DNA of 61,565 nucleotides from the NCBI GenBank assembly GCA_903878115.1, contig CAIRGO010000016.1, positions 1 to 61,565 on the forward strand. Reading direction: 5' to 3'. Of this stretch, positions 18,356 through 31,680 are shown one piece after another. The DNA is from Akkermansiaceae bacterium (GTDB lineage Bacteria; Verrucomicrobiota; Verrucomicrobiia; Verrucomicrobiales; Akkermansiaceae). The first letter of the stretch is position 1, and every line of letters starts with the position of its first letter. The notes beneath the pieces are model-generated. The model ran no database searches. It worked only from the letters and a program-made list of their open reading frames with translations, and was not told where the DNA came from. A program made the position numbers and the translations under genes.

Positions 18356-18513
18356 GTGGGAAAGAGAGAGTAAATCACGAAATCAAGGAGCGATCAAGAC
18401 AGAAACACAGGAAATTTCCGATTCTTTTTTGCCCAGTGTCATAAGTGACAGAATCTTTGACCGATTCCGACTTGCCAAGAGCGATAAATAACTTAGGCTG
18501 GACGCGATTTTTC

Positions 18514-21500
18514 ATGACCCCTGCTCGTTGTTTCCGATTATTGCTGTTTCTTACCTTAGTAAGTTTGGCATGGTTATTTTGCGAGTCGGAAATGATTTTT
18601 CCTGCGTTATCGAAACGCTCAATTGATCAGCAGCAAGTTGCTTCCAATGAGAATGTAATTACCATAACCAAGAACGGCGATGCCCAGGTGAATGATGCAT
18701 CATTGCCTGAAGATGAAGATTGGGAAATCATCAGCGCAGCCAATGGGCAGAAGATGATTTTAGCATTGGATGAGGCTGTCAGTCGTGACAATGATGGCAA
18801 GGAAACGGTCATCAAACTAGTGCCCGCGGCAACACGCGAAACACTGCCATCTCGTCTTTTACAGCTTGGCCCAGTGGATCGTATTTTTCCTGTCGCTTAT
18901 CTAGCAGATCAAGAGCATACCATTTATTCTCGGCATATCGTGACCAAAGATTTGCGATTGCAAGTGGACTATGATGAGGCTGACCGACTGGCCACGCAGT
19001 TGCAGTTAGCAATCAAAGATAAACCAAGCTATGCTCCAGGGTGGGTGATTTTTTCTGCGGTCGATCCTTTCGCCGCACTCGGTGCCATGTCTGTTCTACG
19101 CGAGCAAAAAGGCAAAGCAACAGCGGACGTATTGCTAGCATCGCAAAAAAAACTCAAAGCCATGCCGAATGATCCACTCATTGCCGATCAATGGCATTTG
19201 AAAAATTCCACTACCTCAAGGACTCATGTGAATATAGAGTCAGCATGGAACTACGGTGGTTCCGGTGGGGTCAAGGGAGCTGGAATACGTATCGGTATTG
19301 TCGATGATGGTTTGCAAACGGCTCATCCTGATTTAGTTGCCAACGTGGACATCACGAATGATAAAGACTGGAACGGTGGTGATAGTGATCCTAATCCCGG
19401 AGTGGGTGATGATCATGGGACTTCTTGCGCGGGGAATGCGGCTGCGAAAGGAAATAATTCGTTAGGCGTTTCAGGCACTGCACCCGATGGCACCCTCGTT
19501 GGCATGCGTTTGATCTCTGCCGCCGCCACAGATGCGCAGGAGGCAGAGGCCATGGCTTACCTTCCTAATTTGATTCAGATTCTTTCCAATAGCTGGGGAC
19601 CAAATGATACCGGTGCAATTGTCGAGGGTCCTCAACCGTTGACCTTAGCCGCATTGGAAACTGCTGCGACGAGTGGAAGAGGAGGCAAAGGAACAATCAT
19701 CATGTGGGCCGGCGGTAATGGTGGTGATGTGGGTGATAATTCAAACTATGATGGCTATGCAAATTCGATCTACACGATTGCCATCGGCGCCTTGGATTCC
19801 AGTGGATCTAGATCTTATTACAGCGAACCAGGAAGTAATGTCGTGGTTTGCGCTCCATCAGATGGTGTTCTTGGTATTACTACAGTGGACCGCACAGGCT
19901 CCAATGGCTATAATACGAATTCTTCGGCTAGTGGAGGTGACTACGCAAACGATTTTGGCGGAACTTCATCAGCTACGCCTACCGCCGCTGGGGTCGTGGC
20001 TCTTTTGTTAGAGAAAAATTCCAACCTCGGCTGGCGTGATGTGCAGGAAATTTTAATTCGCTCAGCTTTTAAATGCAAACCCACTGATGCAGGCTGGGTC
20101 AACAATAGTGCGGGCTTCCATTTTAATCACGATTTCGGCGCGGGTCTTATCGACGCGAATGCCGCAGTCACAATGGCAGGCACATGGACAAATCTTCTGG
20201 CGCAAACTTCTACGATCTCCACGGAAGCGTCTTTAAGTGTGCCGATTCCAGAAAATAATGCTACCGGAATCACTCGCACCTTCAATTTGTCTGCTTCGAG
20301 TATTCGTGTCGAGCAGGTGACGGTTAAAGTTGATATCACTCACACATCACGTGGAAATTTAGAAATAAGTCTTACTTCCCCAAATGGCATGGTCAGCAAA
20401 TTGACGGAAGTACATGCTGACACGAATAACAATTATGCGCAATGGACATTCAGTTCTGTTCGAAATTGGGGAGAGAGTTCAGCGGGCAATTGGACTCTAA
20501 AAATTGCAGACCGTAGCACGGCTGGAAATTCTAGTGGAGGAACGTTGAATTTTACTGAGTTGAAAGTCTTTGGTACTAGCACCGCGCTTGTCAATCCTGT
20601 TCCAGCGGTGCAAATTACCCAACCTAATCAGAACCAAGTATTTAGTCCGGGGTCATCTGTCGCGGTCAATGTTTCCGCTGGTGATCTAACTGCAACAGGA
20701 TCAACGGGCGTTATTACTCAGGTGCAGTTGTTTGATCAAGGGCTGCTGGTCGGGACTGACACAACGGCACCTTACTCATTTTCCTTTTCCCCTACACTCG
20801 GTGCACATTTGTTAGAGGCAAAAGCCACCGATAGTCAGGGAGCCGTCGGAACCTCGGTCAGTGTTAATTTTTCCGTCGTGAATCAGGCCCCTGTCATCAC
20901 AGCGGCGAGTCTCTCTGCTAGTGGTCAAGTATTTTCTGATGTGGCGCTCACGGTAAGCTCTGTCACTGCCGCTGATCCCGAGGGCGGTTCGCTCACCTAT
21001 TCCTATCAATGGCAGTCTAGCATCAATCAAACGGACTTTATCGATGTTGCCTCAGCGACTCAGGCGACGTCACCCGTATTACCAGGAAGATTGCTGCGTT
21101 GCGTGGTGACTGCCTCCGATGGTATTGCCTCTAGCAATTCATTGACTACGGCATCAGTTAACATGCTGACCCGTCCCGTAACAACAGTGGCAGCGGGTGC
21201 GGGTTATTCTTATACGAGTGGCTTGGTACTCCGAGGAGTAAATACATCTGTGTCGCGCGCTGCGATGATCCATGAATTCAGTCAAGGAACTGGCACGGCG
21301 GAATGGGTAGAAATACTCACTCTGGACGCGGCGAGCTTTCGCAATTGGTCTCTCGCCGATAGCACTGCGTCCCGACTAACTTTTGCCAATACATCCGTGT
21401 GGGATAACATCCCGGTTGGAACTTTGATTGTCATTTATAATGGCGCATCAAAAGATACTTTACTCCCTGCGGATGATAACGACCCGAGTGACGGCAGGAT

Positions 21501-23202
21501 GATTTTATCTTCCTCCAATACGACTTATTTTGCTGGTGTATCCCCGGCATGGGCATCACTAGCTAATACTGGCGATGCAGTAGTATTGCGCTCATCTACG
21601 AGCGCAGTGGTAAGCCAAGTTTGTTATGGCGATCAAAGTAGTTATCCGCCCAATATCGGCAATGTGAGTGGCGGCATGTCGGCATATTTCAGCGGTAGTG
21701 ATGAGGCAGCTTCATCACTTGTGGCAAATTGGGTCATCACCTCGTCTACCGTTGCTAGATCGAATGGACCGCGCGTCGCCGCCAGTTTGCCGATTAGCTT
21801 TGGCGGAGATTGGACTACGTTGCCGACCGGATTCACGGGCAGTGGGATTGGCACTTATGCTTCTGACCTCGGTGGGGATACTGGCTTGAGTTCAGCAAAA
21901 TTCGATACTTCAGGGGATTCACTAGTGATCCAGTTTTCTACACAAGCCGCTGCGCTAACCTATCAAATCAGAGGAAATCCTGGCTCGGGCACTGCGACGA
22001 CGGGCACATTTCTGATCGAAGAATCTGCAAATGGTTCCACATACACGACGATGCGGACCATCTCCAATGCGAGCAATGGAGATACTGCCTATTCTAATAC
22101 ACCTGCGGCTTCGACGCGTTTCATTCGTTATACCTATTTAACGAAAATAGATGGCAATATTCAATTAGACAAACTGGCGATTACCGCTGCGGTGCCAAAT
22201 GTGCTCAGTGTCGTCGTCAATCCAGCAACCATTTCTGAAGGCGCTGGTGCCTCAACTGCGACAGCAACAGTCACTGTTTCGGCGGCACCGGTGTCCAATC
22301 TCGTGGTCAACCTTAGCTCGTCCGATACCACAGAAGCGACTGTTCCTTCAACTGTCACCATACTAGCTGGGCAAACTTCTGCGACATTTTCCGTTACGGC
22401 GATTGATGATCTGGACGTGGATGGCACGCAGACGGTGGTCATCACTGCAGCATCCGTTGGTTACAGCAGTGGCACCTTTTCGTTGTCGGTGACCGATAAT
22501 GATGGAGCGCTTACAGGGGTGACGCCGGGCGCCGCGAATACACCAGCAAATCAAACGTTAATTACTAGTTTACGCAATGGCTCAAACAGCTCTTCAGCAC
22601 TATTTCGTATTGGTTCTGCGGCGCAAGTTCCCGCAGACCTTTCATTGAATACCACTACCGGAGTTCTTTCGGGCAATCTGGCAAACAGCAATCCGACAGG
22701 AAATTATCTGATCGTGATCGAACGCTACAATTCACTCAATGAAGTAGTCTCGCAATCGTTTACCTTGAATCTAACAAATTCGATCAACAATTATGCCAAT
22801 TGGATTCTTGCTTACCCCCTCGCAACTCCATCCTCTGCAACCGCTGACGGTGATAGTGATGGTGTTACCAATGCGGTGGAAAATCTACTAGGTACTAGGC
22901 CTGATGTTTTTTCCGCTGGCCTAACGAAAATTGTGGCTTCAACGGGGATCTTGGTTTTTGAACATAGTCAATCGAATAGTCCCGCAACTGATCTGCAGTC
23001 AGCATACGAATGGTCAATCGATCTGCAGCATTGGAATGAAAATGGTGCGAGCTTTGGGGGAACACTGGTGAGTTTTAGTGCTGCCACGCTTGTTGATCTT
23101 GCTGCACCAGCGAATGATCAGATTCGCGTTACGGCAACAGCTACGGGAGTAGTTCCAAGTAGATTGTTTGCCCGTTTGCGCGTGACGCAAACGGGGCAAT
23201 GA
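18514..23202 (+). CDS. Giant secreted subtilisin-like serine protease (S8) with P-domain, lamin-tail and Calx-beta-like modules
   Basis: About 1562 residues from ATG 18514; the frame is open from a GTG at 18445, but the later ATG starts just before the signal helix (RCFRLLLFLTLVSLAWLF). A propeptide of about 230 residues precedes the S8 catalytic domain, with Asp in GIVDDGL (near 263), His in DDHGTSCAG (near 300) and Ser in FGGTSSATP (near 485). Next come a proprotein-convertase P-domain (about 575-690), a Big/PKD-like module, an Ig-like module, a lamin-tail-like domain (MIHEFSQGTGTAEWVEIL, about 918), and a Calx-beta-like module (about 1230-1330). The end carries the ADGDSDGVTNAVENLLG calcium-like motif but no PEP-CTERM tail. 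It is expected at the cell surface or outside; the substrate is unknown. Confidence 0.92.
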   Translation: MTPARCFRLLLFLTLVSLAWLFCESEMIFPALSKRSIDQQQVASNENVITITKNGDAQVNDASLPEDEDWEIISAANGQKMILALDEAVSRDNDGKETVIKLVPAATRETLPSRLLQLGPVDRIFPVAYLADQEHTIYSRHIVTKDLRLQVDYDEADRLATQLQLAIKDKPSYAPGWVIFSAVDPFAALGAMSVLREQKGKATADVLLASQKKLKAMPNDPLIADQWHLKNSTTSRTHVNIESAWNYGGSGGVKGAGIRIGIVDDGLQTAHPDLVANVDITNDKDWNGGDSDPNPGVGDDHGTSCAGNAAAKGNNSLGVSGTAPDGTLVGMRLISAAATDAQEAEAMAYLPNLIQILSNSWGPNDTGAIVEGPQPLTLAALETAATSGRGGKGTIIMWAGGNGGDVGDNSNYDGYANSIYTIAIGALDSSGSRSYYSEPGSNVVVCAPSDGVLGITTVDRTGSNGYNTNSSASGGDYANDFGGTSSATPTAAGVVALLLEKNSNLGWRDVQEILIRSAFKCKPTDAGWVNNSAGFHFNHDFGAGLIDANAAVTMAGTWTNLLAQTSTISTEASLSVPIPENNATGITRTFNLSASSIRVEQVTVKVDITHTSRGNLEISLTSPNGMVSKLTEVHADTNNNYAQWTFSSVRNWGESSAGNWTLKIADRSTAGNSSGGTLNFTELKVFGTSTALVNPVPAVQITQPNQNQVFSPGSSVAVNVSAGDLTATGSTGVITQVQLFDQGLLVGTDTTAPYSFSFSPTLGAHLLEAKATDSQGAVGTSVSVNFSVVNQAPVITAASLSASGQVFSDVALTVSSVTAADPEGGSLTYSYQWQSSINQTDFIDVASATQATSPVLPGRLLRCVVTASDGIASSNSLTTASVNMLTRPVTTVAAGAGYSYTSGLVLRGVNTSVSRAAMIHEFSQGTGTAEWVEILTLDAASFRNWSLADSTASRLTFANTSVWDNIPVGTLIVIYNGASKDTLLPADDNDPSDGRMILSSSNTTYFAGVSPAWASLANTGDAVVLRSSTSAVVSQVCYGDQSSYPPNIGNVSGGMSAYFSGSDEAASSLVANWVITSSTVARSNGPRVAASLPISFGGDWTTLPTGFTGSGIGTYASDLGGDTGLSSAKFDTSGDSLVIQFSTQAAALTYQIRGNPGSGTATTGTFLIEESANGSTYTTMRTISNASNGDTAYSNTPAASTRFIRYTYLTKIDGNIQLDKLAITAAVPNVLSVVVNPATISEGAGASTATATVTVSAAPVSNLVVNLSSSDTTEATVPSTVTILAGQTSATFSVTAIDDLDVDGTQTVVITAASVGYSSGTFSLSVTDNDGALTGVTPGAANTPANQTLITSLRNGSNSSSALFRIGSAAQVPADLSLNTTTGVLSGNLANSNPTGNYLIVIERYNSLNEVVSQSFTLNLTNSINNYANWILAYPLATPSSATADGDSDGVTNAVENLLGTRPDVFSAGLTKIVASTGILVFEHSQSNSPATDLQSAYEWSIDLQHWNENGASFGGTLVSFSAATLVDLAAPANDQIRVTATATGVVPSRLFARLRVTQTGQ

Positions 23203-23211
23203 GCAAGCTTC

Positions 23212-23478
23212 TTAGTGTTTCATGTTAGCCATGTATTTCTCAGGGCTGGCGTGGAATTTTTTCACACATGGTTTGCAGCAGAATTTGATTTCTTGACCAT
23301 TGTATGCCTCGGTGACGGGGGTGCCCATCGATCCGAGTTTGTTGCCGCTGACGATGCATGTCTGCGCCGTGTAGGGCTTGACGCCCTTTGCGGTGGGAGT
23401 GCTAGTCATGTCTGGATTAGTGCACGAACTGAAAAGTCCTGCTGCCGTCACGATGATGATAGTAATGTATTTTTTCAT
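23212..23478 (-). CDS. Small Cys-rich lipoprotein, YHS/TRASH-like, probably copper-binding
   Basis: The 88-residue protein has a lipoprotein signal (lipobox LFSSC, lipid Cys19) followed by a short linker and a compact domain with Cys41, Cys67, Cys68 and Cys71 in the pattern TCIVSG ... FCCKPCVKKFHASPEKY. The latter resembles metal-binding YHS/TRASH-type domains. It is the last gene of the minus-strand cassette after the multicopper oxidase fusion (50 bases downstream), which suggests copper or other heavy-metal binding in the periplasm. The metal is inferred, not shown. Confidence 0.8.
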   Translation of the reverse strand: MKKYITIIIVTAAGLFSSCTNPDMTSTPTAKGVKPYTAQTCIVSGNKLGSMGTPVTEAYNGQEIKFCCKPCVKKFHASPEKYMANMKH

Positions 23479-23527: not shown

Positions 23528-25522
23528 TTAAAAATGAAATCCTATGCCTACGCCCCAGCCGTGGTTGGAGTCGTAGCCGCCGCTGAGTCCGTAGTTTTTA
23601 TTAAGCGTATATTCCATGTTGGCACCGTATTCCCAGAGGTCTGAAGTGTCATGCTGCACGCGGGTCATGAGACTCAGGCGGGAACTGATTTGAAAGGATT
23701 TACTGAGCGCTATTCTGCCGTCTAGTTCGTCGTTAAAGCTAATCTCGCTCTTAATCAAGTAAGGTAAACGATAGCGCACTCCTACGAAAAAATGATTCTC
23801 CTCGGAATCATGCAGGGAAAATCGATAACCTGCGAGCGATGAAATGTTGGGATTGAAGTAGTGCGACCATACAAATTGATTTTCCTCACTGTGATCATCG
23901 TCTTCCACCATCCCATGTTCCCAGTCGAGGTTGAGATTTTCTCTGCCCCACATCAGTGATGCCATGCCCATGGTCATATTGGTTTGCGCCACGCCATCGA
24001 TCATCCAATACCAAGGTTCGCGAGCGGACGGGCCTAAGTTTGGCTGATGATCGGCACCGTGGTCGTCGTAGCTGATCACACGTGCCATGCCGGCATCCAT
24101 GTGGTAAAGTAAATGGCAGTGGAAGATCCAATCGCCGTGTTCGTTGGCGAGAAATTCAATGGTGCGCGAACCCATAGGTGGTAGATCGACTGTGTGTTTC
24201 AGCGGTGAATAGTCGCCCGCTTCATTGATCATCCGGAAAAAATGCCCGTGCAAATGAATCGGGTGGTGCATCATCGAATCATTGACCAAATTGATCCGCA
24301 ATACTTCGCCGCGTTTGACGGAAATAGTGCTTTCTTCGTAAAGTGTTTTATTGTTAAACGACCAACGATATCGCTCCATATCGCCGGTGAGATGAAGGTC
24401 GATGCTGCGCGAACTAGTCGCATTTTTATATGTAGTTTTTTTCAGGGCCCGCAAGAATTTGTAGGGGGATGAATGCGGGTGCAGCGGGTCGTCGTCGATA
24501 TCGAGCGCCTGGTTGAGCATGTTGTCCATATTATAGTAATTAGGACGGCTAAGATCTTTCGCTTGATGCAATAAACCATTTCCGAGAATGAGTGAAGCGT
24601 GCCCTGATATATCCTGCGCGGTGGAGCGGATTTCAAACGCCCCATTGGCAGGCATGGTGACAACGATGTCGTACGTTTCCCCCATGCCTAACAATAATTG
24701 TTCGGTCTTTAATGGTTGCACGTCATTGCTGTCTGCCGCGATGATCGTCATGTTAGGAAATGCAGAGTTAATGTAAAAATAACTCGATGCGCCAGCATTG
24801 ATGATCCTGAGACGAATGCGTTCGTTTGCTTTGGCTGGAAGATATTGTGTGCTGAGTCCATTAATGAAAAATGCATCATAGGCAATATCGGAAACATCCA
24901 TGGGCAATAGTCGGGATTTTTCCCGTTGCCAGTAATCGCGGAGAGATCCTTGTTTGATGGCTCCTGCGATCGATTGCATGGTGCCTTTCCGGATGGAATA
25001 ATAATTGCTGCTGCGCATCAGTGTGCGCATGATTGCTTTTGGGTCTTCATGAGTGAATTCTGATAGAACCATCACGTAATCGCGATCATACGCTGCGGTG
25101 TTAGATTTTTTTGGATGCACTATGATGCCCCCATACAATCCGCGTTGCTCTTGTAATCCAAAATGCGAATGATACCAAAATGTGCCTGAGTGGGTCAGCG
25201 GGAATTCGTAAGTAAATAATTCCCCTGGCGCGATGGGGAGAGTATTCAGATAGGGCACTCCATCCTGGTTATTTGGCAATAGTAGTCCGTGCCAGTGTAG
25301 GGAAGTGGCTTCTTTTTTTAGCGAATTCGTCACGTGAATGCGAGCTACATCACCTTCGGTGAATTCTAGTGTTGGCGCAGGAATGCTATCATTGATGGCC
25401 AAACCAGTGCTGGTTTTGTTACCAAGCGTAATTGTCTTTTCTGCCACCGTGAGATGGTATTCAACGATACGAGCGTGGAGAAAAATCGAAAAAAGGAAAA
25501 AAATGAATAAATAACGATGCAT
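23528..25522 (-). CDS. Multicopper oxidase fused to a CopB-like outer-membrane barrel
   Basis: The 664-residue protein starts at ATG 25522 with a signal peptide (MHRYLFIFFLFSIFLHA). Residues about 20-485 are a CopA-type multicopper oxidase with all four copper motifs: LHWHG (76-79), YHSHF (118-120), HPIHLHGHF (near 418-425) and HCHLLYHMDAGM (near 466-480, type 1 Cu ligands Cys, His and Met). After an Asp/His/Met-rich linker containing MTMGMASLMWG, residues about 530-664 consist of alternating amphipathic strands ending GWGVGIGFHF, with the terminal Phe of outer-membrane barrels and a pattern like CopB. CopA and CopB are normally separate proteins. The fusion would hold the oxidase at the outer membrane. 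Confidence 0.88.
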   Translation of the reverse strand: MHRYLFIFFLFSIFLHARIVEYHLTVAEKTITLGNKTSTGLAINDSIPAPTLEFTEGDVARIHVTNSLKKEATSLHWHGLLLPNNQDGVPYLNTLPIAPGELFTYEFPLTHSGTFWYHSHFGLQEQRGLYGGIIVHPKKSNTAAYDRDYVMVLSEFTHEDPKAIMRTLMRSSNYYSIRKGTMQSIAGAIKQGSLRDYWQREKSRLLPMDVSDIAYDAFFINGLSTQYLPAKANERIRLRIINAGASSYFYINSAFPNMTIIAADSNDVQPLKTEQLLLGMGETYDIVVTMPANGAFEIRSTAQDISGHASLILGNGLLHQAKDLSRPNYYNMDNMLNQALDIDDDPLHPHSSPYKFLRALKKTTYKNATSSRSIDLHLTGDMERYRWSFNNKTLYEESTISVKRGEVLRINLVNDSMMHHPIHLHGHFFRMINEAGDYSPLKHTVDLPPMGSRTIEFLANEHGDWIFHCHLLYHMDAGMARVISYDDHGADHQPNLGPSAREPWYWMIDGVAQTNMTMGMASLMWGRENLNLDWEHGMVEDDDHSEENQFVWSHYFNPNISSLAGYRFSLHDSEENHFFVGVRYRLPYLIKSEISFNDELDGRIALSKSFQISSRLSLMTRVQHDTSDLWEYGANMEYTLNKNYGLSGGYDSNHGWGVGIGFHF

Positions 25523-25614
25523 AAAAAATTGTGGTGGATGAATCTCTGCGTTTTTTCGGCGCAAAAAAATCAATTTCTAGAGACCCGCAGGAGTTACTGC
25601 GTTGGCGCACTTCA

Positions 25615-25986
25615 TCAAATCACATAGACGCAAATCACCTGATGCAGTCGTCGCAAGGGTGGATGTGCTTGCCACGCTGTATCGATGGCATTGTGTGCTG
25701 TACTTTCGTTAGAAAAAATAGCCATGCCATGGTCTGCAATCGTCACCAAGGGAACCGACGGTGTGAACGGCAGAAACTCATCCGCAGACACGGGAGCGGG
25801 CGAAGGTTTCTCGATTCGACAACCGCAGGAATCTTGCTCATTTTTAGTTGTCTTTTTATGCTAAGAGCAACAACAACATTCTTCGGTGCCGCATGTTGTA
25901 GGGGAAGCTTGGGGAAATCCACAAGCCGCGGAACTGGCGATCATGATCACCAGAAACAAACTCAGGGACTGACGGAACTTTTTCAC
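25615..25986 (-). pseudogene. Cys-rich copper-cassette lipoprotein gene interrupted by an in-frame TAG
   Basis: From GTG 25986 the frame encodes a signal peptide with a lipobox (SSAAC, lipid Cys22) and a short Cys cluster (TTCGTEECCCCS) before an amber codon at 25861-25863 (codon 42). The same frame continues without another stop as HKKTTKNEQDSCGCRIEKP, then VSADEFLPFTPSVPL and a C-terminus LRRLHQVICVYVI, ending in TGA at 25615. Without the TAG it would be 123 residues. It lies directly upstream of the multicopper oxidase fusion on the same strand, so a copper-binding role is likely. It could be a recent pseudogene, a sequencing error or a readthrough gene. Confidence 0.7.
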
Positions 25987-26114
25987 AGTTATTAAGCGAA
26001 TCTAGACGGGGATTATGTTTTCACAATGGGAAAATTTTCCAAACGGGTGAATTATTTACATGCGGCAATTTTTCGGTTGAAAAGATTGCAGATCAATGAA
26101 TGATCTGTCTGGAG

Positions 26115-26615
26115 ATGACACAATGGTATTACGGCAGTGAGGGGCAACAGAATGGCCCAGTGGCAGATCACGAACTTCATTCTTTGATCGCTCAAGGAGT
26201 GATCATTGATAGCACTCTCGTATGGCGTGAGGGAATGGTGACGTGGCAAGCAAAGGCCACTGTGCCAGAACTGCAAGCGGGTGCTTCATCGCTGAACATG
26301 GCGAATTCTTATTATCCTGCCATGGCCAATATGGCTCCCAACTCAGGCCTCGCGATCGCCAGCATGGTTTGTGGGATTGTGAGCATACTATTTTGTTATG
26401 TGCACGCTATTGTGGCCATACCTGCGGTGATTTGTGGTCACATGGCATTGAAACGCATCAATGATTCCCCCGTTCCGATGGCTGGGCGCGGCATGGCTAT
26501 TGCGGGATTAGTGACTGGTTATATCGCGCTATTTTTTCAAATATGCTGGATCGGGTTTTTCATTTATGCATTTAACCAAGCTTCCTCGCATAGTTCATCA
26601 ACTTTTGGTCCTTAA
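26115..26615 (+). CDS. GYF_2 (DUF4339) and DUF4190-like membrane protein
   Basis: About 166 residues. An N-terminal GYF_2 domain (QWYYGSEGQQNGPVADHEL ... VWREGMVTW, residues 3-50) is joined by a short linker to a two-helix DUF4190-like membrane region (GLAIASMVCGIVSILFCYVHAIVAIPAVICGHMAL then a second helix pair). An ATG at 26100 in frame is an alternative start. GYF_2 domains are thought to bind peptides, but no function is known for these fusions. It is followed by a paralogue at 26634, which has its own -10-like TATAAT in between. Confidence 0.82.
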   Translation: MTQWYYGSEGQQNGPVADHELHSLIAQGVIIDSTLVWREGMVTWQAKATVPELQAGASSLNMANSYYPAMANMAPNSGLAIASMVCGIVSILFCYVHAIVAIPAVICGHMALKRINDSPVPMAGRGMAIAGLVTGYIALFFQICWIGFFIYAFNQASSHSSSTFGP

Positions 26616-26617
26616 CT

Positions 26618-26623
26618 TATAAT
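26618..26623 (+). promoter_or_regulatory. Predicted -10 element upstream of the GYF_2 gene at 26634
   Basis: A perfect TATAAT lies three bases after the previous stop codon and ten bases before the next ATG. A TTCATC 18 bases upstream is a weak -35. If used, the mRNA leader would be only about three bases. Confidence 0.4.
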
Positions 26624-26633
26624 CTAGCTTATC

Positions 26634-27227
26634 ATGAATTGGTTTTATGCAAAAAATGGCAGTCAACAGGGTCCTGTTGCAACGGAGGCACTCAAAGCAA
26701 TGCTTGCTAGCGGTGAAATTTCACCGAGCGATTTGATTTGGCGTGATGGAATGAGTGATTGGACTCCTGCGGGGCGTGTAGCGGAGATTGCTTCGGTCGC
26801 GGCGAGTCCTTCAGTGGAAGCGGCACCCTATAACTCACCAGCACCAGCGTCTTACTCGGCGCCAACTTCATACGCGGCTACTTCCTCGTATTCGCTAGGC
26901 CAATTACCGCCTCCTGCTGGATTAGCGATTGCGTCGATGTGCTGCGGTATTGCTTCGATTGTCATTTGTTGCATGCCTTATTTCTCTATTTTTGCTGCGA
27001 TAGCGGCTGTAGTAATGGGTCACATTTCACAGAAAAAAATTAAAGCAAATCTTGCAGGTGGATCTGGTATGAAAACTGCCGGTCTTGTCACCGGATACAT
27101 CGGTCTTGTTCTTGCCGTTTTCATGCTTGGAGCCATGGTATTTGCTCAAGTTAATCCAGACTTTGCAAAAAAAATGGAAGAGATACAAAATATGCAAAAG
27201 CAAAAAATCGAAAGTCAGCAGCGCTAA
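26634..27227 (+). CDS. GYF_2 (DUF4339) and DUF4190-like membrane protein, paralogue
   Basis: The 197-residue protein repeats the architecture of its neighbour: GYF_2 domain (NWFYAKNGSQQGPVATEAL ... LIWRDGMSDW, residues 2-46), a Pro/Ala/Ser/Tyr-rich linker (about 60-95), then the membrane block GLAIASMCCGIASIVICC and a second helix near 150-170, ending in a basic Gln/Lys tail. The two copies differ mostly in the linker. It is followed six bases later by the DUF2752 gene and probably cotranscribed with it. Confidence 0.83.
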   Translation: MNWFYAKNGSQQGPVATEALKAMLASGEISPSDLIWRDGMSDWTPAGRVAEIASVAASPSVEAAPYNSPAPASYSAPTSYAATSSYSLGQLPPPAGLAIASMCCGIASIVICCMPYFSIFAAIAAVVMGHISQKKIKANLAGGSGMKTAGLVTGYIGLVLAVFMLGAMVFAQVNPDFAKKMEEIQNMQKQKIESQQR

Positions 27228-28403: not shown

Positions 28404-29642
28404 ATGGAAGCTACATCACCCACTAATAAAAACAATCGATCGTTTGGAACGAACGTTTTCAACTTTTTTTCTAGCTTCACGCTTGCTACGGTACTGCTGT
28501 TAATTTTGCTTTTACAGACTTGGCTTGCAACTCTAGAGCAAGTCGATCACGGGCTTTACGATACCTTGCGAAAGTATTTCGATCCTTCGCAATTATTCAT
28601 TCTCGGAGAGTTAAAATTGCCCGATTTCATGGGCGAAAAAACGCTTATCATCCCGATGCCTGGTGGCTACTGGGTGTTAGGTCTGTTGTTTATCAATTTA
28701 TTTTTAGGTGGAATCATTCGCGCTCGCAAAGGATGGAAAAAAATTGGCAATTTCATTTCCCATTGTGGCATTCTATTGATGATTGTCAGTGCTGCGGTCA
28801 CCGAATGGCAAGAGCAACGCGGAACAATGGATTTTTTTGAAGGAGAGACCAGCAATGTGGCGCGCGATTACCATGAATATGTTGTCGAGATTACGGAATA
28901 TACGAATGGCAAAGCTGATCGAGTTCACGTGATCCGCGGCAACTATCTCAGCGACCTCGCTGGGGATCCTGATTTTGTGAGAACTGTGCGTTTGCCTGAG
29001 TTGCCGTTCGATATGCAATTTACTCGCTATGCGATCAATAGTCGTGTGATGTCCACCAGCGAAATGCCGCCACCGCCTGGGATTCCCGTGGTTGATAACT
29101 ATTTCGTTTTTGAGCGACCCGGTGAAAAAGAGGCCGAGACCAATATCGCGTCTTGTTATGCAAAGGTTTTGCCCAAATCAGGAGTTCCCGGTCCGGCGTT
29201 TATCCTGAGTGGAGATGCTGTGGAGCCCTATACGGAAAAAGTCGCAGAGCGCACTTTTGCGATTCACATGAGAAAGTTTTTGTGGGTGATGCCGTTCTCG
29301 GTCCGGTTGGATAAAGCGACGGCGGAATACTATCCGAATACCGCAAAACCCAAACGTTTCGAAAGTCGTGTCACTCGTATCGAAAATGGTAGTGAGGCGA
29401 TTGTAGAAATTAAAATGAACGAGCCGATGCGTTACGAGGGGCTTACCTTTTATCAACGCATGATGGGCGGAGGCATGCCGGGTGGTGCTGCGATGCGTGC
29501 TTCTTCACAGCTAGAAGTGGTGCGCAACCCCGCTGATCAGTGGCCCAAGTACGCGCTCTACATTGTTACTCTAGGGTTGTTTGTTCAGTTTGTGCTGAAA
29601 TTCGTCATCTACCTGATCCGCAACTCTCAACCGAAATCATAA
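28404..29642 (+). CDS. resB: ResB-like cytochrome c biogenesis protein
   Basis: The 412-residue membrane protein has the ResB layout: a first helix after FFSSFTLATVLLLILLLQTWLATLEQ, a second (GYWVLGLLFINLFLGGIIRA), a third (FISHCGILLMIVSAAVTEW), a large periplasmic domain (about 150-375) and a last helix near the C-terminus (YALYIVTLGLFVQFVLKFVIYL). The His in ISHCG and the WQEQRGTMDFFEGE motif fit the family. ResB with CcsA forms the system II complex that exports haem and attaches it to apocytochromes c. It is followed one base later by the ccsA-type gene. Confidence 0.9.
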   Translation: MEATSPTNKNNRSFGTNVFNFFSSFTLATVLLLILLLQTWLATLEQVDHGLYDTLRKYFDPSQLFILGELKLPDFMGEKTLIIPMPGGYWVLGLLFINLFLGGIIRARKGWKKIGNFISHCGILLMIVSAAVTEWQEQRGTMDFFEGETSNVARDYHEYVVEITEYTNGKADRVHVIRGNYLSDLAGDPDFVRTVRLPELPFDMQFTRYAINSRVMSTSEMPPPPGIPVVDNYFVFERPGEKEAETNIASCYAKVLPKSGVPGPAFILSGDAVEPYTEKVAERTFAIHMRKFLWVMPFSVRLDKATAEYYPNTAKPKRFESRVTRIENGSEAIVEIKMNEPMRYEGLTFYQRMMGGGMPGGAAMRASSQLEVVRNPADQWPKYALYIVTLGLFVQFVLKFVIYLIRNSQPKS

Positions 29643-29643
29643 T

Positions 29644-31680
29644 ATGGCTGAAATTCGCTCCATGCTCTGGGCCCGTGTGCTCGCTTTATTCATTATCGTT
29701 GTAGGATTGCTCGGCACCTTTGCGATGATGGTTCGTGATATGTCGCCCAAGGGCGAAGCGATCAAGATTGCTGGTTATCAACCGTGGTCAAAAGAAACGC
29801 TGGCGATTGCAGAAAAAATCCCTGTGCAAGAAGGTGGACGCGTGAAACCACTTTCTTCACAAGCCGCTTTCTCGATGCTGCGGATGCGCGGTGACCGCAC
29901 CATTAAAGTGCAAAACGATGAAGGAAAAACCATTTCCATCAAACCTACTGCGTGGATGATGGATTGTCTATTCCGTCCGAATTATGCAGTAGAAATGCCC
30001 ACCTTCCGTGTCGATAACGGCATGGCAATTCAGGCGATTGGCATGGAAATGAAAGACCAGCGCGATCGCTATTCCTATAAGCAGCTCGAAGACTCGATCC
30101 CGAAACTTTTTGAACTCGCTCAAGCGTATGAAAAAATGGATGAGAAAAAACGCGATGCCGTGCAAAAGCAGGTGATCGATTTGGCTTACAATGTGCGCAA
30201 TTACCAAACACTCATTGGCTATCTTAGTTTTGCACGGTCTGGCATAGAAATGAAAGCGGCGAATCAAGATGGTTCTTCCAGATATACCACGATCAGTGCC
30301 GTCATGGTGATGGCTCCTGATATTTTGGCTATGGCGCGCGAGGCAGAAGCGGCAGGAAAAGAGATTCCCCCGAATCTAACCGATTTGCTCAATCAAGTGC
30401 TCGATGGGGCCAATTTTGCAAAGTATGGGTTAGTGATGTTGCCTCCTCTCGAATCAACAACTACCGAGTGGCGTAGCGCGGGTGATCGCATCATGGATGT
30501 GATGACTTCCAAAGTGAAAGATCCGACCGCAGCTATTGAAGATATTAAAATGTTAGAAGTTGCGGCAGCAAGTGTATCTGCCGGAGAATCACAATTCCGT
30601 GATGATCTAACGAAAATGGTAAAACATTTCGCTGATCGTGCTGAGCAACGTGGTGAATATCGCTCCATCGCGGCGGAAGCTAGTTACAACAATCGCCAGT
30701 ATCCGCTAAATGCGATGATCTTTTTCTTGATCGGCGTGCTTTGCTCATTAGCCATGTGGTTCACCGTTGTGATGGATCTAACCATTTTACGAAAACTTTG
30801 CTATGGAGCGACTATCATTTTCACCTCGCTAGGTTTACTGACCATGCTTGCTGCGATTTCTTTGCGCGTTTATATCATGTGGCGACCGCCGGTCGGAAAT
30901 CTTTATGATACCATCATTTTCATCTGCACGTTGATGGTAGCGATTTTGCTTTTGTTAGAAAAATTCACCAAGCAATCGATTGCGGCCACTCTGGCGCCGC
31001 TGGCTGGTTTGGGATTGATTTTGTTAGCACGCAGCTATGAATTGGGCGACGCGAAAGATCACATGGATCCTTTGGTGGCCGTGCTGAAATCGAATTATTG
31101 GTTGACCACGCATGTGATCGTCGTCACTTCTGGTTATGCCGTCGGCTTGCTAACTGCATTTTTATCGATCAGTTACGTTTTGCTGCGCGGCTTAGGATTT
31201 GGCGGGAATTTGAAAAAAACTCTCAAGCTAATCACCACTGCAGCGTATGGTTGTCTATGCCTAACATTATTCCTCTCACTTGTTGGCACCGTGCTCGGAG
31301 GTATCTGGGCAAATGATTCATGGGGGCGTTTCTGGGGATGGGATCCGAAGGAAAATGGTGCTCTCATGATTGTATTGTGGTCGTTGATTCTGCTTCATGC
31401 TCGATTGGGTGGTTTGATTCGCGACTGGGGATTCCACCTCGCATCGATGTTCATGGCTTGCATCGTCTCTTTCTCATGGTGGCATGTGAATTTCCTTGGC
31501 GTTGGACTTCACAATTACGGATTCACTTCTGGAAAAGGTGCCATTTGGATTTTTTACGCACTCATTTTATTGCTGATTCTCTTTGGTGTTGCGATGTGGA
31601 TAGCCGAGCAGTTCTCCGCAAAAGATGAAACGCAAGCGAGCAGCGATACGACAAGCGAACCTGCAGAAATGCTCTATTAA
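29644..31680 (+). CDS. ccsA: CcsA/CcmC-type cytochrome c assembly protein with a long N-terminal domain
   Basis: The 678-residue protein has an N-terminal helix, about 300 residues of soluble, charged, probably periplasmic sequence, and then a C-terminal eight-helix cytochrome c assembly domain. The haem-handling WWD-type motif is ANDSWGRFWGWDPKEN at about 555-572, with conserved His residues in nearby loops (WLTTHVIVV and WWHVNFLGVGLHNYG). The family core is about 300 residues, so the N-terminal half is an addition seen in verrucomicrobial and related forms. It starts one base after resB. The pair constitutes the system II haem lyase. Confidence 0.92.
   Translation: MAEIRSMLWARVLALFIIVVGLLGTFAMMVRDMSPKGEAIKIAGYQPWSKETLAIAEKIPVQEGGRVKPLSSQAAFSMLRMRGDRTIKVQNDEGKTISIKPTAWMMDCLFRPNYAVEMPTFRVDNGMAIQAIGMEMKDQRDRYSYKQLEDSIPKLFELAQAYEKMDEKKRDAVQKQVIDLAYNVRNYQTLIGYLSFARSGIEMKAANQDGSSRYTTISAVMVMAPDILAMAREAEAAGKEIPPNLTDLLNQVLDGANFAKYGLVMLPPLESTTTEWRSAGDRIMDVMTSKVKDPTAAIEDIKMLEVAAASVSAGESQFRDDLTKMVKHFADRAEQRGEYRSIAAEASYNNRQYPLNAMIFFLIGVLCSLAMWFTVVMDLTILRKLCYGATIIFTSLGLLTMLAAISLRVYIMWRPPVGNLYDTIIFICTLMVAILLLLEKFTKQSIAATLAPLAGLGLILLARSYELGDAKDHMDPLVAVLKSNYWLTTHVIVVTSGYAVGLLTAFLSISYVLLRGLGFGGNLKKTLKLITTAAYGCLCLTLFLSLVGTVLGGIWANDSWGRFWGWDPKENGALMIVLWSLILLHARLGGLIRDWGFHLASMFMACIVSFSWWHVNFLGVGLHNYGFTSGKGAIWIFYALILLLILFGVAMWIAEQFSAKDETQASSDTTSEPAEMLY

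Follow-up and report, generated by a model that had tools for sequence, protein, structure and literature searches.

We have identified a gene in an Akkermansiaceae genome, on a contig of 61,565 nucleotides that was analysed as a whole (hereafter the window), in which one chain combines a CopA/PcoA-like multicopper oxidase, its copper motifs intact, with a CopB/PcoB-related barrel. The arrangement is conserved between genomes, and our searches of the genome found no CopB encoded separately. The gene probably encodes a self-anchored copper-detoxification enzyme, in which Cu(I) would be oxidised at the outer membrane and Cu(II) handed to the protein's own barrel. CopA-CopB fusions are an already known type, of which the window gene is a further case, in Verrucomicrobiota.

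An oxidase and a CopB-related barrel in one frame

The fusion gene is a single open frame without a break on the minus strand, as the earlier note on this DNA had described, and an alternative TTG start at 25573 would lengthen its product by 17 codons. The gene, its parts and its two neighbours are the following:

23528..25522, minus strand: multicopper oxidase and outer-membrane barrel fusion gene, 664 codons, ATG at 25522 to TAA at 23528
25472..25522, minus strand: hydrophobic Sec-type signal sequence, residues 1 to about 17, no twin arginine, boundary set by eye
24065..25447, minus strand: three cupredoxin domains with four copper motifs, residues 26-486 (Pfam and Foldseek)
23531..24010, minus strand: CopB/PcoB-related barrel with C-terminal Phe, residues 505-664, 12 strands in a low-confidence model
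23212..23478, minus strand: YHS/TRASH-like Cys-rich lipoprotein of 88 residues, 49 nt past the fusion gene, Pfam match below cut-off
25615..25986, minus strand: Cys-rich exported leader gene with GTG start and an in-frame TAG at 25861-25863

Residues 26-486 are covered by the Pfam families Cu-oxidase_3, Cu-oxidase and Cu-oxidase_2, with scores of 146, 66 and 123 bits that all lie above the respective cut-offs of 21, 21 and 20.4; E values of 6e-43 and 1e-35 were obtained for the oxidase half. The four copper motifs that had been read as those of a CopA-type oxidase are all intact (HWHG at 76-79, WYHSH at 116-120, HPIHLHGH at 420-427 and HCHLLYHMDAGM at 468-479), and all four are likewise present in 21 of 22 aligned relatives. 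In NCBIfam, the top match to the whole protein is copper_res_A (CopA/PcoA, TIGR01480; E 5e-118), although its 395.2 bits do not reach the curated cut-off of 478.95. Because of this score, the oxidase is called CopA-like here and not a scored member of CopA. When the full structure model was compared with solved structures, ascorbate oxidase and laccases were retrieved (best E 1.5e-36; Foldseek), and the 50 matches listed were all laccase-type oxidases. A Cys pair (CDDC, CDSC or CDTC) lies near the signal end of the fused oxidases L025, L027, L030, L032, L033, L034 and L043, and is not in the window protein.

The substrate has to be considered at this point. An enzyme acting mainly on something else, for example Fe(II), Mn(II) or phenols, with copper secondary, would suit a protein that falls under the curated CopA cut-off and does without the Met/His-rich insert present in the Sphingobacterium and genus g3 relatives, and sequence alone does not fix the substrate. 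We nevertheless think such an enzyme unlikely: copper_res_A is the best whole-protein NCBIfam match, the oxidase is fused to a CopB relative, and the neighbouring genes encode Cys-rich proteins of the metal-binding type.

The barrel half was expected to comprise about 135 residues of barrel-like strands. The strands are there, but the length is nearer 160 residues, since strands span 507-663 in the low-confidence full model. What had been described as a Met/His/Asp-rich linker consists, in the same model, largely of the first barrel strands, with residues 540-547 or so (EDDDHSEE) forming a loop. Both structure models draw 12 strands, the number found in PcoB (PMC9210255), at low confidence; in the barrel-only model they appear as ten strand runs, two of which are long enough for two strands each. 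Structure prediction of the full protein, a check that the earlier note had proposed, yielded the strands but with pLDDT blocks of only 32-75 over the barrel, and the barrel-only model has a mean of 35; the models were built from shallow alignments of 15 and 3 rows.

Judged by profile comparison, the C-terminal barrel is related to CopB/PcoB. A profile of 20 barrel rows was aligned with four plasmid CopB proteins at a probability of 94.8% and E 5.4e-8 over 99 columns (hhalign). The Pfam search for CopB at the C-terminus, the other check proposed, gave a divided answer. For the window protein it stayed below threshold (OMP_b-brl at E 0.005 and CopB PF05275 at E 0.028 with the C-terminal part alone; 14.4 bits for the whole protein and 18 bits for the C-terminus against a PF05275 cut-off of 27), but 8 of the 20 members of the barrel alignment match PF05275 at E 0.01 or below, the best at 1.2e-9. 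With the barrel-only model, Foldseek returned no significant match, PcoB (7pge) being ranked second at E 0.12 and probability 0.13. The window barrel sequence searched alone gave nothing under E 0.2. The barrel profile did not find PcoB, and its only match below E 0.1 was a designed barrel (E 1.6e-5), with porins at about 0.1. All 20 barrel rows end in Phe or Tyr, the window protein in the Phe already remarked upon; a C-terminal aromatic residue is expected for a barrel assembled by the Bam machinery.

The residues of PcoB's D97-E207 copper site and of its E130-E223 pair were mapped onto the barrel rows by hand. By this mapping, the positions of D97, E207, E130 and E223 are acidic in 12, 1, 17 and 8 of the 20 rows, respectively, and the E207 position adjoins a conserved Lys/Arg. 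From the D97 and E207 positions, the barrel's copper binding may differ from that of PcoB. The loss of E207 is weak evidence, because three of the four separate CopB proteins are also without it, carrying Y, Y and T instead. Other conserved residues of the barrel are W534, E/D535, K608 and D625. The barrel might serve as an anchor only, fixing the oxidase to the outer membrane and passing no copper, which is possible but in our view doubtful. A D97-E207 site that is not kept would agree with such a role, as would a barrel that is shorter than CopB and has very short loops in the low-confidence model. Harder to reconcile with a mere anchor are the acidic residues kept at the E130 and E223 positions and the conservation of the four residues just named, and the state of E207 in the separate CopB proteins takes weight from its loss here.

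Separate CopA-CopB or PcoA-PcoB pairs (PDB 7PGE is PcoB) combine a related oxidase with a related barrel, but as two proteins, and the separate copA and copB genes adjoin in the four plasmids that we fetched. A twin-arginine export signal is usual for the CopA/PcoA family, and the four separate CopA proteins carry one (4/4 by eye, 3/4 by script pattern). The window fusion differs in being one chain with a shorter barrel and a Sec-type signal, its N-terminus having no twin-arginine signal. Among 23 fusion N-termini, four match the twin-arginine pattern, and only in L030 does the match lie within the likely signal. In the genome (95.3% complete), a CopB family search turned up no CopB encoded apart from the fusion. 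This search is blind to most barrels of the present kind, those of the window protein and of the Sphingobacterium fusion among them, so that it could overlook a diverged CopB elsewhere. The barrel profile matches the genome at one place only, and a second barrel of the fusion family was thus not found.

Distribution and integrity of the fusion

The whole fusion protein is matched in 26 of 57 genomes, including the window's own. Twenty-two relatives align with it from end to end (21 frames from 19 genomes and one Sphingobacterium protein), with identities of 42-59% in the oxidase and 21-46% in the barrel; as this set was picked for frames of more than 600 codons, it demonstrates existence and not frequency. 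We also searched with the barrel alone, which applies no length filter. Of 288 genomes from the phylum, the window's own among them, 28 gave a match, and at 27 of the 29 phylum loci fetched in this way, oxidase and barrel lie in one frame; the genomes of these loci overlap partly with those of the long-frame set. The other two are L072, whose barrel is interrupted by a TGA, and L073, with a 77-codon frame near a contig end. In Bacteroidota, 17 of 99 genomes match the barrel search (Sphingobacterium included), and both parts share a frame at 20 of 20 loci, although at L086 and L087 the frame holds only part of the oxidase. The fusion is spread through the window's order and also occurs in Bacteroidota and in certain other families of the phylum; within the phylum it is common, not rare.

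Of the 3853 plasmid records with a match, 25 span 80% or more of the fusion protein, at 36-43% identity; 24 are from Bacteroidota (mostly Hymenobacter) and one is from Fusobacteriota. Hymenobacter, Spirosoma, Flavobacterium and Ilyobacter plasmids are represented, with the product named 'multicopper oxidase domain-containing protein'. One gene covers both parts in the plasmid regions H1 (Hymenobacter) and H9 (Ilyobacter), where the neighbours differ from those in the window, and three of the 25 records (H16, H20 and H25) are not annotated as one gene.

Some copies are broken. In a genome of the same genus (G007), a TAG falls exactly at the oxidase/barrel junction, together with a frameshift and a contig edge (positions 300-1766; L020 and L002 are the same stretch), as a decayed gene or poor assembly would give. 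In the G008 copy (L039), both the oxidase and the barrel are interrupted by frame breaks, G028 and G038 hold pieces of the fusion at contig or locus ends, and G049 and G055 gave weak oxidase matches only. It could be argued from such copies that the fused frame is the product of an assembly join, or that it is cleaved after export, leaving two proteins as in Proteobacteria. The TAG at the junction would fit this; the breaks in L072 and G008 lie inside the barrel or the oxidase, and cleavage would be invisible from sequence. The fusion is nevertheless unbroken in the 22 relatives, albeit picked for length, and in one frame at 27/29 and 20/20 of the barrel-fetched loci with their partly shared genomes, while the junction TAG is accompanied by a frameshift and a contig end that fit decay or poor assembly. 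Two separate products are, on this evidence, very improbable. An artefact of assembly or frameshift was accordingly rejected despite L020/L002, L072 and G008, and the join or frameshift near 24060 that the earlier note had allowed for did not materialise: the joining of a CopA-like oxidase to a CopB-related barrel stands as genuine, on the hhalign match and on the single frame across relatives.

The rarity that the earlier note implied is not supported, as fusions of this kind are common and have been reported before. A fused PcoA-PcoB was described in five Legionella species in 2012 (PMC3548706), and a multicopper oxidase of Bizionia argentinensis (G2EDV6) with a C-terminal PcoB-like porin region at 611-809 in 2024 (PMC11213822). 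Both combine an oxidase and a PcoB-like part in one chain, as the window protein does, and in the Bizionia protein the porin-like region is C-terminal like the window barrel, but that protein is longer. These organisms belong to other phyla than the window, and the likeness is one of description, not of compared sequences. The available text of the two reports does not mention the YHS/leader cassette of the window. No literature on this fusion in Verrucomicrobiota was found in a search that was thin on subscription journals.

The YHS lipoprotein and the Cys-rich leader

The oxidase gene had been placed between two Cys-rich lipoprotein genes. The downstream one was borne out as a YHS-type gene; the upstream one is interrupted by an in-frame TAG and is not intact. 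Of 19 further neighbourhoods (L115-L133), 18, all but L133, have a relative of the YHS lipoprotein no more than 800 nt past the fused gene, sometimes in two copies. Among another nine phylum loci (L134-L142), it is found at L134, L135, L136, L138 and L139 and also adjoins the broken G008 copy (L140); it was not seen at L137 or L141, and the L142 locus is cut. A YHS-type protein occurs in 32 of 57 genomes (own included), some of them without a detected fusion, and was not seen in three genus g3 loci or five Bacteroidota loci. A literature search linking the YHS domain, copper and multicopper oxidases found nothing. Convergent with the copper cassette lies a gene for a subtilase of 1585 residues (window 18445-23202, plus strand), which carries a P-domain, Ig-like domains and a lamin-tail-like match, the last below cut-off.

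In the window's leader gene, the TAG comes after 41 codons, beyond which the frame runs on without a stop as far as the tail HPPLRRLHQVICVYVI. Since TAG serves as a normal stop in the window, the leader copy here is broken or misread; a reassignment of TAG, considered for this gene and for the L020/L002 junction, was rejected, as TAG terminates 4 of 37 long window frames. By eye, a leader is found upstream of the fused gene in 18 of 28 neighbourhoods, namely in 15 of 19 of the L115-L133 set (L115-L118, L120, L122-L126 and L128-L132) and in three of nine of the L134-L142 set (L134, L138 and L139), and it was not seen in the genus g3 or Bacteroidota loci examined. These leaders are about 115-150 residues long and consist of a signal, a Cys cluster (CC ... 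CxC), a variable middle that is often Pro-rich, and a tail whose conservation extends to the stop (PPLRRLALLQRFLI, PHVRLPVLFCSLLT and similar). This tail may resemble the 'HYC_CC_PP' proteins of NCBI from Bacteroidota, although that family was not among the NCBIfam matches of the leaders.

Synonymous change exceeds non-synonymous change in the five leader pairs compared (pS/pN of 0.56/0.20, 0.59/0.25, 0.58/0.37, 0.70/0.36 and 0.61/0.41), which makes it very likely that the leader is a real coding gene. None of the ten leaders scanned, out of 18 found, matches a relevant Pfam or NCBIfam model; the lowest E value, 0.0027 for Prokineticin, was taken as chance. Five loci have a small hairpin directly 3' of the leader stop, and after it comes a conserved TTGTGCC-like stretch (at L128:6655-6705, L129:4888-4938, L132:4721-4772, L123:7201-7251 and L126:4752-4802). 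A claim of a conserved RNA hairpin was dropped as too weak, with six pairs, two of them changed on both sides, and a covariation of +0.44 from five sequences. On the plus strand of the window, at 26100-27227 and 28404-31680, two GYF_2/DUF4190 genes and then ResB-like and cytochrome c assembly genes were also observed.

The order of the cassette recalls cutF-cutO-cutG of Rhodobacter capsulatus, where a Cys-rich exported leader, a multicopper oxidase and a protein of the copper-binding type follow one another, and where CutF, which is exported, senses copper and governs the translation of the CutO oxidase (PMC9973294). By place and build, the leader recalls CutF and also CruR (PMC9426467), but the DUF2946 signature is absent: CutF is a DUF2946 protein, whereas PF11162 found no match in any of the ten leaders scanned of the 18, a scan that did not include the window's broken copy. 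CutO is a Tat protein for which the available text of PMC9973294 mentions no barrel, in contrast to the Sec-type, barrel-bearing window oxidase, and CutG, a copper chaperone, is likened to the YHS protein by gene order only. By analogy, the leader is possibly a copper-sensing leader peptide heading the oxidase cassette. One could go further and picture a three-gene device in which the leader would sense periplasmic copper during translation, its tail would control the fused gene, and the fused protein would oxidise Cu(I) and pass Cu(II) into its own pore. We entertain this only tentatively and hold it to be rather unlikely; such a device, in the window's phylum, would be CutF-like but without a DUF2946 match, perhaps of separate origin.

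Proposed mechanism and significance

The preferred reading of the fused gene is that of a self-anchored copper-detoxification enzyme. As the barrel must enter the periplasm unfolded, the fused oxidase would use Sec and load copper outside. The near absence of plausible twin-arginine signals from the fusion N-termini, set beside their presence in the separate CopA proteins, agrees with this. The chain would cross through Sec unfolded, and the oxidase would then fold and take up copper in the periplasm, while the Bam machinery would insert the barrel by way of its C-terminal aromatic strand. The oxidase would thereby sit at the inner face of the outer membrane, and anchoring there, which the earlier note had also suggested, is the natural reading of the sequence. 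At the barrel mouth, the oxidase would convert periplasmic Cu(I) to Cu(II), and the barrel would pass or hold the Cu(II). The YHS lipoprotein encoded downstream is probably a copper-binding or copper-delivering protein. Oxidation and anchoring would follow from homology, whereas the hand-over to the barrel and its direction are what we infer.

A disordered N-terminus rich in His and Met is common in CopB (PMC12509749), and PcoB conducts Cu2+ (PMC9210255). In Caulobacter, copper efflux requires PcoB, whose disordered N-terminus, again rich in His and Met, stabilises PcoA; a docking site has been proposed there (PMC12509749). A natural fusion of the two would be expected if the two proteins worked in contact. 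Both the contact of PcoA with PcoB and the direction of transport through PcoB are under debate, import being argued in PMC9210255 and efflux with PcoA docking in PMC12509749. For the fused barrel, we lean slightly towards export over import.

The single-chain version occurs in Verrucomicrobiota, in Bacteroidota and on one Fusobacteriota plasmid. Since a single chain fixes both stoichiometry and tether, one protein would suffice to test both the contact between PcoA and PcoB and the direction of copper through PcoB. The genes for the leader and the YHS lipoprotein, conserved next to the fusion, have loose annotations or none, and resemble components of copper handling. The main value of the finding would lie in this conserved cassette and in the use of a natural fusion for studying how PcoA and PcoB cooperate.
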